A stretch of DNA of 5,389 nucleotides from Sporomusa sp. (GTDB lineage Bacteria; Bacillota_C; Negativicutes; Sporomusales; Sporomusaceae): the NCBI GenBank assembly GCA_029256645.1, contig JAQSXM010000265.1:1-5389 (forward strand), in the 5' to 3' direction. Positions 1-5,218 of this stretch are shown piece after piece. The notes beneath the pieces were generated by a model. The model searched no databases and had not been told where the DNA came from. It worked only from the letters and a program-made list of their open reading frames with translations. Every line of letters starts with the position of its first letter. Position 1 is the first letter of the stretch. Position numbers and translations under genes: made by a program.

Positions 1-1766
1 GGCCGGTCTGCTCTTAAGCGTGCCGGAACAGTTGTCGGATCCACCGGATATTGATAAATCAACTGTGTGTGGCTAAGAATTTCTCCTACAGGTTTAATCA
101 TATACTGCGAGTCATTGGCAGGATTATTCTCAGGGTTATCATAGGATGTGGCATAAGCAATATTATCGACTTTTCGTTGTTTGATGGTTGCCACCAAATC
201 ACCAACCAGCCTGTCGTTTGTATAATAGTCCAGCCTAAAATGTATGATCTGACCACGGGCCACAGAAAACACTGATTTTCCAAAAATCTCAGCCATGACC
301 TGATCTGCAGAGGTATAATCTTTATGTTTGCTTTGTACAACATTAACCGAATGCCCAATCAATCTGCAGCCCTGGCTTAAAACGGCTTCTTTTGTAGCGT
401 CTGTTATGGCACCCCAAGGTTGTTTTACCAGATTCGTTTCCACACCAAACTGTTCTTGCAGGTTCTTACGGTCCCGCATAATCGTACTACGGGTTTCATC
501 CGCTGTTTCTCCATCTTTTGGCCTTATTGCAATCCCGATTTCGTGGCCATTGGCTATAATCTGCCGCAGTGTTCCGGGATACTTTTTCACTTCTGGTTCT
601 GCCACAAAGAAGGTCGCTTTAATGCCAAGCTCCTTCAATCTTCCGAGTACGTCGGTTACTACTGCTTCGTTGGCTAATCCTCCAAACGTATAGGCGAGCG
701 CCGGTTCAGTGGTAAAAATAGTCTTAATTTCTTGTGCCTGGTCAGCCACAGTTGCTGCCGCATAAGCAGTACGGATAGAAAACAGGTTCACAACCTGTTC
801 TCGTACGAGGGCAGTAATTTTTGCCAGCAAAGAAGCGGTGTCATCCCCGTTATTATTATGCTGAAGGGTAGTATTTATTGGTTTAAATTCTTCCACATAG
901 GTGGTAATATAATTTCCTTTATTCAGTGCAATTAATAGTTTTTCTAGCGTATCAATAAGCGCTTTTCCGCTTAGATCGGCTTGCTCAGGGAGTGCTTTCA
1001 AGCCCGGCTGTTTATCCACTGCCGGGCTTAATGCCGTTTTTCCCGGCTCACTGATAATCGACTCGACATTGTCTTGCAATTTAATGGAAACAATACTCCC
1101 TGGTCTAAGCTTGCCGACAAAAGCCTCTGCGGCAGCAAGAGAGTTTACTTGTTTTACATTCAGAAAAATATCACTGCTTACAACACTCTTAAACCCTGAG
1201 GCTTTCGCCACTTGCAGCAACTGATCGGTATATTTTGTATCATTGCATTTTAGAAGCTCTGTTCCTTGACCGGTGGTTACTTTAATGATCGTCTGGGACT
1301 GGCTAAAATCCCTAACCAACTGTTCGGCAGGCAGATTCTCCATCTTACCCAAACCGGCAAGGGTATAGTTTCCGATTCTTTGTCCTGCTGTTTTGATATT
1401 GACAACAGTTTGCGGATCTTCGGCAGTCTGCATCCCATCCACAAAAAATGTTGCCTTTACCTGATATTTTTTCAATAGATCTAAAATCTGTTGCATAGTA
1501 GTGCGGTCTGTTAGCCCGTCAAAAGTGAGGGCAATCTGCCGATGATTACTATTGCTCCGGGTAATGACAGTTGCCTTCTCCGGGCTTTTTTTCAGTTGCT
1601 CCAAGGCCTGGGTAATTTCGGCGTCAGCCGGATAGGGACTTGCCACATCGGTAATATTACGGTATTTCCCCCCGGTTTGCGTTGCAGCAAAGTCTTTGAG
1701 GAAAAATCCTCCCAGCAGACAAAGCCCTAGCAGAACCAGTGCTGCTACAATTTTCTTATTGATCAC
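1..1766 (-). CDS. Membrane-anchored protein with two degenerate polysaccharide deacetylase (NodB-like) domains, C-terminus beyond the window
   Basis: This frame is open for 588 codons from a GTG at 1766 to the window edge, so the C-terminus is missing. The GTG is supported by an AAGGGGTG ribosome binding site six bases upstream. Residues 5-23 are a hydrophobic signal or anchor segment, so the bulk should be extracytoplasmic. Two NodB-like units follow, at about 75-295 and 355-545. Each keeps the fold's landmarks: the QIALTFDG or LAYTFGG strand, then a helix and KATFFV (104-109, 383-388), and a late GxI strand and closing helix. The catalytic signature is lost. TFDDG has become TFDG (81-84) and TFGG (360-363). 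The HxxxH metal motif has become Tyr134/Gly138 and Ala413/Lys417. The RPPYG region reads KCNDT (173-177) and QPWGA (449-453). Family homology is fairly clear, but deacetylase activity is doubtful; glycan binding or scaffolding is inferred. It is the third gene of the operon, 18 bases after the sugar-nucleotide dehydrogenase. Confidence 0.85.
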   Translation of the reverse strand, partial: MINKKIVAALVLLGLCLLGGFFLKDFAATQTGGKYRNITDVASPYPADAEITQALEQLKKSPEKATVITRSNSNHRQIALTFDGLTDRTTMQQILDLLKKYQVKATFFVDGMQTAEDPQTVVNIKTAGQRIGNYTLAGLGKMENLPAEQLVRDFSQSQTIIKVTTGQGTELLKCNDTKYTDQLLQVAKASGFKSVVSSDIFLNVKQVNSLAAAEAFVGKLRPGSIVSIKLQDNVESIISEPGKTALSPAVDKQPGLKALPEQADLSGKALIDTLEKLLIALNKGNYITTYVEEFKPINTTLQHNNNGDDTASLLAKITALVREQVVNLFSIRTAYAAATVADQAQEIKTIFTTEPALAYTFGGLANEAVVTDVLGRLKELGIKATFFVAEPEVKKYPGTLRQIIANGHEIGIAIRPKDGETADETRSTIMRDRKNLQEQFGVETNLVKQPWGAITDATKEAVLSQGCRLIGHSVNVVQSKHKDYTSADQVMAEIFGKSVFSVARGQIIHFRLDYYTNDRLVGDLVATIKQRKVDNIAYATSYDNPENNPANDSQYMIKPVGEILSHTQLIYQYPVDPTTVPARLRADR

Positions 1767-1784
1767 GTATATCACCCCTTATGC

Positions 1785-3107
1785 TTAAAGACTCCAGTAG
1801 CAGTAACCCTTTTCTTCTATGGTTTTCTGTTCAAATATACTTTTGATATCAATAACAACATGTTGTGCTTGTAGTTCCTGTTGTTTGAACATGCCGGCCA
1901 AATCTTCCGGCCGCAAATCCTTAAACTGCTGATGTGCTACTAAAAACACCAGGCAATCGGCATTCCGGACATTTTTCAAATCTACAAGCTCTATATCAAG
2001 TTCTTTATTGAATTCTGCCTGATCAACATATGGATCTACCACCTTGACCTTAATTCCATATGCCGAAAGGTATTTACAGACATCCACAGCTTTCGAATTG
2101 CGCATATCCGGGCAGTTTTCTTTGAAGGTTACCCCCATAATATAAATGTTGGATTTCTTAACATCCTTATCAGCCTGAATCATTTTCTTAATCACGTTGT
2201 CAGTAACAAAAACACCCATATTGTCATTGATTTTTCTGCCGGCAGCAATAATCTGCGAGTGATACCCCAGCATCTCAGCCTGATAAATAAAGTAATAGGG
2301 ATCGACACCGATACAATGCCCGCCTACCAGACCCGGATAAAACCCTAAAGCATTCCATTTGGTATTCATCGCATCGATAACATCTTTTGTGTTGATTCTC
2401 ATGCGGTCAAAGGCCATTGCCAGTTCATTCATAAAAGCAATATTAATATCTCTTTGGGCATTCTCAGCCAGCTTGGCCGCTTCCGCTACTTTAATGCTGG
2501 GTGCTTTATAGACACCTGCATGAATAATCAACTCATAGACAGCCGCAATGGCTGCCACAGTCTCTTCATCCATACCGGCAACGACTTTACGGATGTTTTC
2601 AAGCCTATGCACTTTATCTCCCGGATTAATTCTTTCCGGCGAATAACCCACTTTAAAATCTTTCCCACATACCAAACCTGATTTTTTCTCTAAAATCGGT
2701 ATGCAAACATCTTCGGTAACACCTGGATATACAGTAGACTCAAAAATAACAATACTGCCTTGCGATAGATTTTGGCCGATCAATTTACTGGCATTGATAA
2801 CAGGTGCCAGATTCGGTGTTTTATCCCCATTGACCGGTGTTGGCACAGCAACAATAATCACTTTGGCTTCTTTTAGCCTTGCAGGATCGGTGGTAAACTC
2901 CAATGCTGTGCTTTTAATTTTTTCATCACCAATCTCATTGGTAGGATCGATTCCCTGTTGGTAAACGTTAATTTTTTCTTCATTAATATCAAAGCCCAGC
3001 GTTTTAACCTTCTCAGCAAACGCAACTGCCATCGGTAAGCCAACATAGCCAAGCCCGACAACGGCCAAATAGTCTTTTTTCGTCCGGATTCTCTCTACTA
3101 ATTCCAT
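1785..3107 (-). CDS. tviB: UDP-N-acetyl-D-glucosamine/galactosamine 6-dehydrogenase, TviB/WbpO family
   Basis: This is a nucleotide-sugar dehydrogenase, predicted to oxidise C6 of UDP-GlcNAc or UDP-GalNAc with two NAD+ to the uronic acid, in the cytoplasm, for capsule, O-antigen or exopolysaccharide synthesis. At 440 residues it is full length. Counting from the ATG at 3107, the Rossmann motif GLGYVGLP is at 18-25, VPTP at 88-91, ESTVYPG at 123-129, YSPERINPGDKVHR at 155-168, the AEAAKLAEN helix with the conserved Lys212 at 208-216, and GGHCIGVDPYY with catalytic Cys265 at 262-272. The C-terminal UDP-binding domain contains GVTFKENCPDMRNS. The YSPERINPGDK and GGHCIGVDPYY segments resemble TviB and WbpO more than UDP-glucose dehydrogenase (Ugd). 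The choice between GlcNAc and GalNAc cannot be made here. The open frame extends to a GTG at 3116, but the AGGTG ribosome binding site lies only about two bases from that codon and about 11 from the ATG, so I chose the ATG. It is the middle gene of the operon. Confidence 0.93.
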   Translation of the reverse strand: MELVERIRTKKDYLAVVGLGYVGLPMAVAFAEKVKTLGFDINEEKINVYQQGIDPTNEIGDEKIKSTALEFTTDPARLKEAKVIIVAVPTPVNGDKTPNLAPVINASKLIGQNLSQGSIVIFESTVYPGVTEDVCIPILEKKSGLVCGKDFKVGYSPERINPGDKVHRLENIRKVVAGMDEETVAAIAAVYELIIHAGVYKAPSIKVAEAAKLAENAQRDINIAFMNELAMAFDRMRINTKDVIDAMNTKWNALGFYPGLVGGHCIGVDPYYFIYQAEMLGYHSQIIAAGRKINDNMGVFVTDNVIKKMIQADKDVKKSNIYIMGVTFKENCPDMRNSKAVDVCKYLSAYGIKVKVVDPYVDQAEFNKELDIELVDLKNVRNADCLVFLVAHQQFKDLRPEDLAGMFKQQELQAQHVVIDIKSIFEQKTIEEKGYCYWSL

Positions 3108-3133
3108 CTGCAACACTTCACCTGCTTAACTAG

Positions 3134-4225
3134 TTAAAAATAATGAGTTATGTGGCTCCACAATGTTTCGCCTTTTGCCCCCGATATTTTGTCTGTCAGG
3201 TCGTAATACTCAATACCGCCGACATAGTTTTCGGCAAAGGTGTAGTTCATGCCTAAACCATGGCCCTTAAAGCCTTGCATTGAACTGCCTCTGCCATTCA
3301 TCCCATGAGCAATATACGTCCCCCGCGGCTGATCATAATATTTGGCAAATAGCCCATAGGTACCTGGCCTCCAGGTTTTTAAATCACCGTAGTTAAAGCT
3401 AAATACATAGCCGGTACCGCCCTCTTGGTTATCTTTCAGGCTGGAATCCAAAACCATGGCCCCTATGCCAAAATTACTGAAATTGTAGTTTCCGCTTAGA
3501 GTTCGGATTGTTTTTTGCCTGCGACTACCGTCATCTGTCTGATAGTAATAAACACCGGCTTCCAGATTGTAATCAAAATCATTATATCGTGCAGATGCCA
3601 CATATGTTTTTTGGGTGTCATTAGTCTCGCCATAGCTCATTGTATATTTCACAGGTCCGCCAAAGTCAAGGCGTACACCGTCAAAACCGCTGTCATACAC
3701 ATTACCTTCTGCCATAAGATAACCAAAAGAACCCGCTTTCAGCGTTGATGCACCTATTTTCCCGGTTACATACAGTCGTGAAAACCTTAATTCATTATTA
3801 TAATTGACTAAACTCTTTTGACTGTCCAGCATACCATAGGCGCGCCAATCCTGATTAATATCAGCATTAAAACCCAGACGGCTGCGTATCCCTGCTGAAT
3901 CCCGGCCCCAACGCCCGGAACCATTGTTAGATGCATAATGCAAACGAATTTCACCGTCAATATTCACCTTGTGATCAAAGTGCTTGCTACTATGGCCCAC
4001 CTGCATCAATTCGTCGATAAGGCCCGAATATGTTTCCAGGGTAATATCCCCTGGATTTCGGGTTGTTTTTTGTCCAGCATTAAAATTATTATTGATTTCG
4101 CCCATATTCAGGGGTTGATTTGAAGCATATACTATGGTTCCTTTCGGCTCGTCACCAAGCTGATTTCCTATAGTCATACCGATTAGCGCTGCCATTGCCA
4201 ACAGTACCCTTACGGTTTTTTTCAC
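3134..4225 (-). CDS. Outer-membrane beta-barrel, putative porin of Negativicutes type
   Basis: This encodes 363 residues from a GTG at 4225 with an AGGGGGG ribosome binding site eight bases upstream. The N-terminus (Lys2, Lys3, Arg6, hydrophobic 7-20) is a signal peptide. Cleavage may be near Ala34, which would leave an unusually long polar stretch after the hydrophobic core. Residues 35-84 are polar and possibly periplasmic. From about residue 86 the protein shows alternating amphipathic strands rich in Tyr, Gly, Asn and Asp, such as VNIDGEIRLHY, RFSRLYVTGKIG and FDGVRLDF (180-187). It ends in LWSHITHYF, with the terminal Phe typical of a BAM-recognised beta-signal. The IDGEIR...RLGFNADINQDW...YVTGK...FGY...YDSGFDGVR pattern resembles putative porins of diderm Firmicutes. 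I see no SLH domain, unlike OmpM-type porins. It is the first gene of the operon, directly after the riboswitch leader. The pore substrate is unknown; a role in polysaccharide passage is only suggested by its neighbours. Confidence 0.82.
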   Translation of the reverse strand: MKKTVRVLLAMAALIGMTIGNQLGDEPKGTIVYASNQPLNMGEINNNFNAGQKTTRNPGDITLETYSGLIDELMQVGHSSKHFDHKVNIDGEIRLHYASNNGSGRWGRDSAGIRSRLGFNADINQDWRAYGMLDSQKSLVNYNNELRFSRLYVTGKIGASTLKAGSFGYLMAEGNVYDSGFDGVRLDFGGPVKYTMSYGETNDTQKTYVASARYNDFDYNLEAGVYYYQTDDGSRRQKTIRTLSGNYNFSNFGIGAMVLDSSLKDNQEGGTGYVFSFNYGDLKTWRPGTYGLFAKYYDQPRGTYIAHGMNGRGSSMQGFKGHGLGMNYTFAENYVGGIEYYDLTDKISGAKGETLWSHITHYF

Positions 4226-4314
4226 TGAATAATCCCCCCCTGATGCAATGATCTAAGCAATTGGTTATTGCACAATTATAATTTTAATTAATTATTTGAT
4301 AATATCGTTTATCG

Positions 4315-4362
4315 AAAAATAGAAAAAATGACTGCCAGGTTGCAATGCAACCTGGCAGTCAT
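4315..4362 (-). terminator. Riboswitch expression platform: intrinsic terminator overlapping the aptamer
   Basis: A perfect 17-bp inverted repeat (4346-4362 with 4328-4344, one central base at 4345) is followed on the minus strand by a T-rich tract, TTTTTTCTATTTTT (4328-4315). The plus strand lacks a U-tract after the hairpin, so termination is minus-directed. The left arm contains both the P3 3' strand (4355-4360) and most of the P1 3' strand (4344-4350) of the adjacent aptamer. Terminator and ligand-bound aptamer therefore cannot form together. Confidence 0.9.
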
Positions 4363-4419
4363 ATACAAATGTACGTAGACCCATAGCTTTGCGTCCTTAT
4401 CTTTCAATAAGTTTGCATT
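4344..4419 (-). promoter_or_regulatory. Cyclic-di-GMP type I riboswitch aptamer (GEMM-I)
   Basis: The minus strand carries the GEMM-I landmarks in order. P1 is AATGCAA (4419-4413) pairing with TTGCATT (4350-4344) and includes the conserved GCAAAC start. A hairpin of CTTATT and GATAAG (4411-4406 with 4401-4396) is capped by a GAAA tetraloop (4405-4402). The invariant GGACGCAAAGC follows (4396-4386). P3 is formed by GC and GGTC (4387-4386, 4381-4378) with GACTGC (4360-4355). TCTA (4379-4376) and TATGA (4363-4359) resemble the two halves of a GAAA-tetraloop receptor. The GCCAGGTTGC segment (4356-4347) matches the conserved 3' core. Class I aptamers bind one c-di-GMP at the three-helix junction. 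It lies about 119 bases before the porin start, with a terminator sharing its 3' half. I read it as the c-di-GMP control of the three-gene operon. Confidence 0.93.
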
Positions 4420-4470
4420 TTATGTTTATTGGGTTTTAGCTATAGGCACAATCAGGGCTTTTGTTTTTAT

Positions 4471-4500
4471 ATTTTATCATCATTTCATTGGTTTCATCAA
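4471..4500 (-). promoter_or_regulatory. Candidate sigma-70-type promoter for the riboswitch leader and operon
   Basis: A -35-like TTGATG (4500-4495) and a -10-like TAAAAT (4476-4471) are separated by 18 bases. A start near 4464 would place the aptamer about 45 bases into the transcript and give a leader of about 240 bases. The match is moderate. It is the best pair I found between the tRNA terminator and the aptamer, which is where such a promoter has to be. Confidence 0.4.
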
Positions 4501-4535
4501 GTCTTATTACGGAAAAATAGTTATTAATAGACTTG
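4498..4535. repeat. Imperfect inverted repeat overlapping the operon -35 box
   Basis: CAAGTCTTATTA (4498-4509) and TAATAGACTTG (4525-4535) are reverse complements apart from one extra T in the first arm, with 15 bases between them. The repeat overlaps the outer part of the candidate -35 box and lies upstream of transcription of the leader. That position suits a regulator binding site, but the sequence matches no operator that I recognise. It could be chance in AT-rich DNA. Confidence 0.4.
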
Positions 4536-4610
4536 TAATTTTTCCTAGTAATTTATTTATCATTATAAATTATCACAAGTGCACTGGCGGCATAGCAGCA
4601 ATTTGTCATG

Positions 4611-4644
4611 AAAAAAGCCTTCCAGCAAAATCGCTGGAAGGCTT
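4611..4644 (-). terminator. Intrinsic terminator of the tRNA-Arg gene
   Basis: A perfect 12-bp stem (AAGCCTTCCAGC, 4644-4633, pairing with 4626-4615) has a six-base loop and ends in a run of T on the minus strand (4616-4611). It begins about 10 bases after the encoded CCA of the tRNA. It should insulate the tRNA transcript from the riboswitch operon. Confidence 0.93.
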
Positions 4645-4654
4645 GAATCTCTTA

Positions 4655-4729
4655 TGGTGCGCCCGGCAGGAATCGAACCTGCGCTTCCAGCTCCGGAGGC
4701 TGGCGCTCTATCCCCTGAGCTACGGGCGC
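4655..4729 (-). tRNA. tRNA-Arg (anticodon CCG), with encoded CCA
   Basis: The minus strand folds into a full cloverleaf of 75 bases. The acceptor stem is GCGCCCG with CGGGCGC, the D-stem GCTC/GAGC, the anticodon stem CCAGC/GCTGG, and the T-arm GCAGG-TTCGATT-CCTGC. The discriminator base is A, followed by a genomically encoded CCA. The seven-base anticodon loop CTCCGGA places CCG at positions 34-36, which reads the arginine codon CGG. It has its own promoter about 27 bases upstream and its own terminator. Confidence 0.97.
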
Positions 4730-4828: not shown

Positions 4829-5218
4829 CTACTTAACGTCAGTCGGAGTCTGGCAATAAGGACATAGGCGCCATTCGCGCTTAAGTTCTTTGCCACATGA
4901 AGTACAAGCAGGTTTTAAGGCAAATCCGCAATAGGGGCATGCTCTAAAATCTTCTTTAACATTACTCGCGCACATCGGGCATTTAATCGTTTCTTCCACC
5001 GGCACAGCTTCAATATCAATAATATCATCATTGCGGCGCGGTTTCATAGGACGTTTCCGTCCAAGCAAAAGGTATAACGGCAAAAACACAACAAGGGCAG
5101 CCAGCGTTCCCACTGACCACAACAGGGCTGTTCCGGTCTCATGCCCCCGCCCCTTAGCATCATTATATACCCAGTACGCGGCAAGCGCAGCAATTAACAG
5201 TCCAAAAGTCGCCATCAT
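4829..5218 (-). CDS. Small membrane protein with C-terminal double zinc ribbon
   Basis: This is a 129-residue protein. Residues 3-19 and 31-52 are hydrophobic and likely form a transmembrane hairpin joined by a short polar loop with NDAKGRGHETG. A basic stretch (53-62, RKRPMKPRR) follows, which by the positive-inside rule puts the C-terminus in the cytoplasm. After an acidic linker come two CxxC-CxxC zinc ribbons: Cys80/83 with Cys94/97 (CPMC, CPYC) and Cys105/108 with Cys119/122 (CTSC, CPYC). This is the arrangement of double zinc-ribbon (DZANK-like) modules. The function is unknown; such ribbons often mediate protein or nucleic-acid contacts. The start is the first of two adjacent ATGs, with GGGAGG eight bases upstream. 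It is transcribed from its own promoter at 5253-5282 and looks monocistronic. It has no visible link to the polysaccharide operon. Confidence 0.88.
   Translation of the reverse strand: MMATFGLLIAALAAYWVYNDAKGRGHETGTALLWSVGTLAALVVFLPLYLLLGRKRPMKPRRNDDIIDIEAVPVEETIKCPMCASNVKEDFRACPYCGFALKPACTSCGKELKREWRLCPYCQTPTDVK

Follow-up and report, generated by a model that had tools for sequence, protein, structure and literature searches.

The stretch of DNA analysed here, 5,389 nucleotides of a Sporomusa sp. contig (JAQSXM010000265.1, hereafter the window), raises the question of how a riboswitch can control the operon behind it if the strand that holds the ligand is at the same time an arm of the terminator, and which ligand such a device would read. 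The first point to settle is the aptamer itself. A sequence-only reading of the locus had proposed a c-di-GMP-I riboswitch, and the covariance scan that it suggested matched RF01051 (GEMM-I) over the whole model, positions 1-87, at 4343..4427 of the (-) strand with 72.1 bits (E 2.9e-13; gathering score 35). A riboswitch of the c-di-GMP-I family is real. In the cmscan alignment the GAAA tetraloop of P2 is present (model 23-26), the conserved A at Rfam 38, equivalent to A47 of Vc2, falls at 4390 (-), and the ligand-pairing C at Rfam 83, taken as C92 of Vc2, falls at 4347 (-). Thus two of the three Vc2 ligand contacts are kept. The third, the selectivity base at Rfam 11 (G20 in Vc2, G11 in Cd1), is a U at 4417 (-), which the earlier reading had overlooked. 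This numbering agrees, for Rfam positions 11 and 38, with the equivalence of G11, A38 and C81 of Bc1 to G20, A47 and C92 of Vc2 given in PMC11218506; for Cd1 PMC9262584 names G11 as the key base and A24-26 as the tetraloop. The bare aptamer folds no better than its shuffles (z -0.84). In the predicted fold of a longer transcript the upstream leader pairs into the aptamer, and the 5' strand of P3 has its complement in a leader segment at about 4431-4443 (-), AUAGCU followed by ACCC, which may be a further competitor.

On the strand of the aptamer a consensus scan found an intrinsic terminator at 4328..4362 (-), composed of a left arm (4362-4347), a 3-nt loop (4346-4344), a right arm (4343-4328) and a U tract at 4327-4323. 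Terminator-like sites in the region 4200-4660 number two vs 0.2 expected from shuffles, and the stretch 4427-4310, which contains the terminator, folds at -45 kcal/mol (z -7.8, none of 200 shuffles being as good). The perfect 17-bp stem described earlier is right as to the palindrome, whose arms have 17 nt, but the hairpin itself can make 16 pairs only. Its left arm spans the P3 3' strand and the ligand-pairing C4347, which forms with G4343 the loop-closing pair of the terminator. The presence of the P3 3' strand in this arm had been seen correctly, but not its extent: instead of 4355-4360 the alignment gives 4360-4358 plus 4355-4349 (Rfam 70-72 and 75-81, together within 4349..4360 (-)). Since the P3 3' strand and C4347 are shared, aptamer and terminator exclude each other, and the earlier proposal that the aptamer acts as its own anti-terminator agrees with this anatomy. 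With a shared strand only one fold is possible, so the layout is that of a transcriptional ON switch.

To place this arrangement among its relatives, RF01051 matches were collected in 30 genomes, 28 from the order of Sporomusa malonica (26 with matches) and two reached via loci L001 and L003. In total 187 matches were tallied; 169 of them, from 28 genomes, together with the window make up a set of 170 distinct aptamers. A simple finder placed the terminator arm over the 3' core in 64 of them, downstream in 83 and elsewhere in 6, while 17 had none. With shuffled downstream DNA the overlap class shrank to 3-9 of 170 (ten repeats), and at a stem score of at least 28 it comprised 41 observed cases vs 0 in every shuffle repeat. 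The downstream class of this finder is unreliable and exceeds its control by a modest margin, with 83 calls vs 38-59 in shuffles (14 vs 0-1 at the stricter score). In the overlap cases several variable aptamer positions agreed with the terminator arm of their own locus better than the aptamers of other loci did (0.92 v 0.47 at Rfam 72, 0.86 v 0.58 at 77 and 0.97 v 0.55 at 84), conserved aptamer positions being without difference, and this comparison is biased because arms were picked for fit to their own aptamer. At loci of the same operon as in the window, 12 of which belong to the set of 170, the strict finder registered overlap in 10; for the remaining two, which belong to the two Sporomusa species, it placed the terminator downstream in one case and reported none in the other. 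A lenient fold test, which keeps the transcript end giving most overlap, detected it in 24/24 same-operon loci. Taken with the anatomy, these loci uphold the earlier proposal of ON wiring, and a predicted ON switch with the aptamer itself as anti-terminator is well supported. The base that follows the ligand-pairing C (Rfam 84) is A in 46/64 overlap cases and C in 55/83 downstream cases (Fisher 1.5e-10 for A, 0.015 among strong calls) and may predict the wiring type.

The use of the ligand-binding core as switching strand, which had been called unusual, turned out to be common to these 64/170 aptamers and to have a precedent in the pilM riboswitch of Geobacter metallireducens, which we take to be Gmet_0970. 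PMC9262584 describes mutually exclusive aptamer and terminator folds for pilM, its C75 being captured by G102. ON wiring by a shared strand is already known, from pilM. What is exceptional in the window is the degree. How far the ligand-pairing C stands from the base it meets in the terminator could be measured in the 48 of 64 overlap cases that have this C inside the stem; the distance ranges from 4 to 34 nt, and the single value of 4 nt belongs to the window. The description of the switch as unusually compact holds, therefore, in degree, but not as a kind of wiring.

The same reading had assigned the segment 4344-4350 to the 3' strand of P1. This assignment had to be abandoned, since the complement at 4419-4413 would use bases of the ligand pocket. 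The helix (4344..4419 (-), AAUGCAA/UUGCAUU) joins Rfam 9-15 with 80-86 and takes positions 12-13 at the base of P2, 80-81 at the base of P3 and the ligand-pairing C at 83; because pocket bases are consumed it is impossible in the ligand-bound aptamer. Part of it is seen when the bare aptamer is folded in silico, and there it may represent a competing ligand-free structure. A conserved P1 was looked for in all 170 aptamers by pairing Rfam 84-91 with the 5' flank, and the best register exceeded expectation by only 0.11, a raw value summed over 8 pairs. As no tested register paired clearly above expectation, P1 was dropped from the mechanism. According to PMC9262584, a pilM construct of nucleotides 14-75, ending at the ligand-pairing C75, is called P1-truncated, so that the 3' side of P1 lies past this C; in Cd1, by the same paper, P1 was not detected.

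Folding energies at growing transcript lengths indicate when the choice between two structures would be made. Keeping the window aptamer costs about 9 kcal/mol as long as the transcript ends no more than 6 nt past the ligand-pairing C, 12 kcal/mol at 9 nt, 18 kcal/mol at 12 nt and 28-29 kcal/mol from 18 nt on; these values account for secondary structure only, with tertiary contacts, ligand, polymerase and its pausing outside the numbers. The starting cost of about 9 kcal/mol relative to the best alternative fold, registered before any terminator, is above that of all three relatives tested at 0-3 nt (3.7-4.3 kcal/mol for G020, 6.3-7.4 for G010 and 4.4-5.1 for G005, i.e. about 4-7), which speaks for poor prefolding of the window aptamer. 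Because the finished terminator outweighs the aptamer in silico by this final 28-29 kcal/mol, control must be kinetic, and since the cost climbs with length, the choice must fall during transcription of the right arm.

From the sequence and its predicted folds, this is very probably a kinetic ON switch of the pilM type. In the absence of ligand the terminator would zip from its loop, the pair C4347-G4343 forming first, and would unravel P3, whereupon transcription would stop. If c-di-GMP is bound, one of its guanines would base-pair with C4347 and remove the starting point of the terminator, and in that case polymerase would reach the operon. The ligand would have to act before about 10 nt beyond C4347 have been made and have emerged. 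This deadline follows from the large excess in stability of the finished terminator over the aptamer, and binding speed and polymerase pausing would therefore set the response.

The first gene behind the switch is 3134..4225 (-), an open reading frame with a GTG start encoding a candidate outer-membrane beta-barrel protein, previously labelled a porin. Its product has no Pfam or NCBIfam match, and a search of the PDB by sequence gave no match either. The structural model obtained from a five-row alignment has 15 strands at low confidence (mean pLDDT 42.7), and a beta-barrel is likely. The Sporomusa malonica orthologue is a fusion with TPR repeats; the exporter PgaA carries TPR repeats. Two other orthologues (L208, 1757-3031, and L209, 2-1267) have several repeats of about 30 residues, similar to FAYEMAQITTKII, before the barrel region. 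Such repeats are absent from the first protein of the window, and the Sporomusa malonica protein has its TPR repeats farther to the N-terminal side. Further genes on the same strand encode a nucleotide-sugar dehydrogenase (1785..3116 (-), Pfam UDPG_MGDP_dh domains, NCBIfam TIGR03026 above cut-off) and a polysaccharide deacetylase (3..1775 (-), Pfam PF01522 in two stretches, open at the window edge). Named relatives of the first gene come from Sporomusa malonica, Sporomusa acidovorans and two metagenome-assembled genomes. The nearest relative found, with 77 per cent identity over 319 columns, is in genome G020. There the operon encodes a deacetylase (with domain matches at three places), a glycosyltransferase similar to NodC, PgaC and chitin synthase, a PgaB-like protein (weak match) and a GH18 protein; the glycosyltransferase has a weak PilZ match (E 0.0034, under the Pfam cut-off). 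By these genes the G020 operon resembles those for synthase-dependent exopolysaccharide production, and the one downstream of the riboswitch is putatively of exopolysaccharide type.

Upstream of the aptamer lies a tRNA-Arg (CCG) gene (4655..4729 (-)) that has a terminator-like hairpin of its own at 4644-4615; in L001 and L209, too, the aptamer has a tRNA upstream. An Rfam match to Plastid-ycf2 at 4657-4729 (+), antisense to this tRNA, was rejected (35.9 vs gathering score 65.7). Still further upstream, at 4829-5218 (-), a 129-aa protein gives double zinc-ribbon matches. A candidate promoter for the switch occupies 4471..4500 (-), with TTGATG (4500-4495) and TAAAAT (4476-4471) separated by 18 nt and TG before TAAAAT. 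In the consensus scan it scores 9/12 and, with three sites found vs 2.1 expected, is weak alone; the block TGATAAAAT from this region is also found upstream of the aptamer in G020. Another promoter-like site at 4275-4302 (-), in the gap between terminator and first gene, consists of TTATCA, 16 nt and TATAAT (10/12) and could bypass the switch, the evidence being weak in AT-rich DNA.

The identity of the ligand deserves more caution. The earlier assignment to c-di-GMP is likely and this remains the best candidate, but it is less certain than was assumed because the selectivity base is U. Mutation of G20 in Vc2 lowers c-di-GMP binding 30,000-fold according to PMC4744006. In PMC9262584 the G11A and G11C variants of Cd1 still bind c-di-GMP, and the base is termed a selectivity factor, not a hard filter. 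An exchange between A20 and G20 switches selectivity between cGAMP and c-di-GMP (PMC6456294). The window carries U at 4417 and not the A at position 20 by which GEMM-Ib is recognized. This U could pair with the Hoogsteen edge of an adenine and so favour adenine. Recognition of c-di-GMP would be kept but lowered or broadened, so that the switch would require ligand at a high level or respond to more than one cyclic dinucleotide.

Of the 170 aptamers, 147 have G at position 11, 18 have A and 5 have U. Aptamers with A here also match RF01051 above gathering, so the position bears on ligand selectivity, not on membership in the fold. A strict pattern applied to 380 Negativicutes genomes revealed 67 non-G aptamers (57 A, 6 U and 4 C), and 4/6 of those with U and 2/4 of those with C stand before the first gene that the window aptamer also precedes. 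The 57 aptamers with A20 have the nucleotide that is characteristic of GEMM-Ib, the cGAMP-sensing type. In the set of 170, non-G bases at position 20 occur in 16/64 overlap and 5/83 downstream cases (p 0.0016; 0.09 for strong calls). Close relatives of the first gene (26 matches at E <=1e-100) were found in 24/380 genomes; a c-di-GMP-I riboswitch stands upstream in 23/26, and in the examined upstream stretches of the other three (G078, G047 contig 24 and G049) no riboswitch reached the gathering score. Together with the window these 23 aptamers make a set of 24, of which 15 have G, 5 U, 2 C and 2 A, compared with G138, A18 and U2 for the other 158 aptamers of the 170 set. The excess of U or C (Fisher p 9e-6) and of non-G bases (p 0.005) is to be read with the reservation that these tests ignore kinship and that the two sets come from partly different genomes. 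A first-gene tree of 15 rows, 14 with a known base and predating the C, A and further G cases, needs at least 3 changes for U; strongly supported branches force only one change, and 45/500 shuffles were as low. A repeated origin of U20 is suggested rather than a single clade, weak branches still allowing one origin. Compensatory pairing of U11 with base 84 was set aside: A or G stands at 84 in all 5 U aptamers of the 170, but A is common there. In the literature searched we found no report of natural U20 aptamers, which could be in print, two founding papers on the cGAMP class being outside the search; a search for c-di-GMP riboswitches in Sporomusa also found no paper.

A further indication of the signal came from genome G033, where a c-di-GMP-II riboswitch (RF01786; L248, 582-668 (-), 61.7 bits vs 53.5) stands before a gene that is more distantly homologous to the first gene of the window (E 2e-80). 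On sequence reading its aptamer segment GGCCAUU pairs with AAUGGCU before a run of U, which would place the 3' strand of the aptamer in a terminator arm and give an ON layout here as well. Since the homologous operon of G033 carries a riboswitch of the c-di-GMP-II class, c-di-GMP remains the best ligand for the window. Two unrelated RNAs, c-di-GMP-I and c-di-GMP-II, would apparently transmit the same signal in the same direction to the same kind of operon.

Altogether we consider it probable that the c-di-GMP-I riboswitch of the window controls an exopolysaccharide operon by kinetic ON switching of transcription. The most serious rival, which we regard as unlikely, retains the ON wiring and assigns it to 3',3'-cGAMP or several cyclic dinucleotides as native ligand. 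It draws on the replacement, at Rfam 11, of the G by which a guanine of c-di-GMP is read, on the role of position 20 in setting cGAMP vs c-di-GMP selectivity (PMC6456294) and on the variability of this base at the operon, where U and C together make 7 of the 24, as opposed to 2/158 elsewhere. However, G is kept in 15/24 same-operon aptamers, c-di-GMP-II stands in the same place in G033, and the tolerance of Cd1 to G11A and G11C (PMC9262584) shows that c-di-GMP binding may survive a change of this base.

It is much less probable that the element is a decaying relic, in which U20 has abolished binding and the terminator constantly lowers operon expression. The altered selectivity base, the costly aptamer fold in silico and the competing helix 4419-4413/4350-4344 predicted for the bare aptamer would fit such decay; but the match extends over the full model with 72 bits, the equivalents of A47 and C92 and the GAAA loop are kept, and the combination of U20, aptamer and overlapping terminator recurs before the same operon in four further genomes. 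An OFF switch, whose ligand-bound aptamer permits the terminator as in Cd1, is hardly credible. Terminator-like stems downstream of 83/170 aptamers might recall this design, though shuffled DNA produced them in 38-59/170; in the window the terminator consumes P3 and C4347 and cannot form beside the bound aptamer, and the scan of 4200-4660 found no second terminator before the first gene. A kinetic ON switch responding to c-di-GMP thus remains the preferred interpretation. A speculative and rather doubtful reading is that the ligand-reading base has been repeatedly exchanged at this operon (G, U, C, A) with wiring and the other pocket positions kept, U20 marking a GEMM-I subclass, set apart by specificity or affinity, that has not been catalogued. 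If that were true, the subclass might read cGAMP or both messengers, the window adding the smallest terminator loop.

The locus is worth attention for its extreme compactness and its exchanged selectivity base, the wiring itself being known. The 24 same-operon riboswitches form a natural set that differs at the base presumed to decide between cyclic dinucleotides and is otherwise intact, so that the choice between hard filter and tuning knob at position 20 becomes testable. With its 4-nt distance the window offers a useful extreme for the study of riboswitches under kinetic control, and a Negativicutes exopolysaccharide operon is pointed to as a member of the c-di-GMP regulon.

Among known systems pilM is nearest. 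According to PMC9262584 it shares with the window the GEMM-I fold, transcriptional ON control without a separate anti-terminator, and a terminator that takes the aptamer 3' strand together with the ligand-pairing C (C75 with G102). Unlike the window, pilM senses cGAMP and has a ligand-stabilised P1, and its C-to-partner distance is 27 nt vs 4 nt; the selectivity base U is a further difference. Cd1 of Clostridioides difficile (PMC9262584) is likewise a c-di-GMP-I aptamer without a detected P1, and its G11 and A24-A26 are numbered as in Rfam, but it is an OFF switch with a separate anti-terminator, a downstream terminator and G at position 11. Vc2 of Vibrio cholerae belongs to the same aptamer class with conserved equivalents of A47 and C92, whereas it operates as a translational OFF switch (PMC9262584) and has G20 where the window has U. 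The c-di-GMP-II riboswitch of G033 (RF01786) resembles the window in gene context and, on sequence reading, in the 3' strand held by the terminator arm, although its RNA fold is unrelated.
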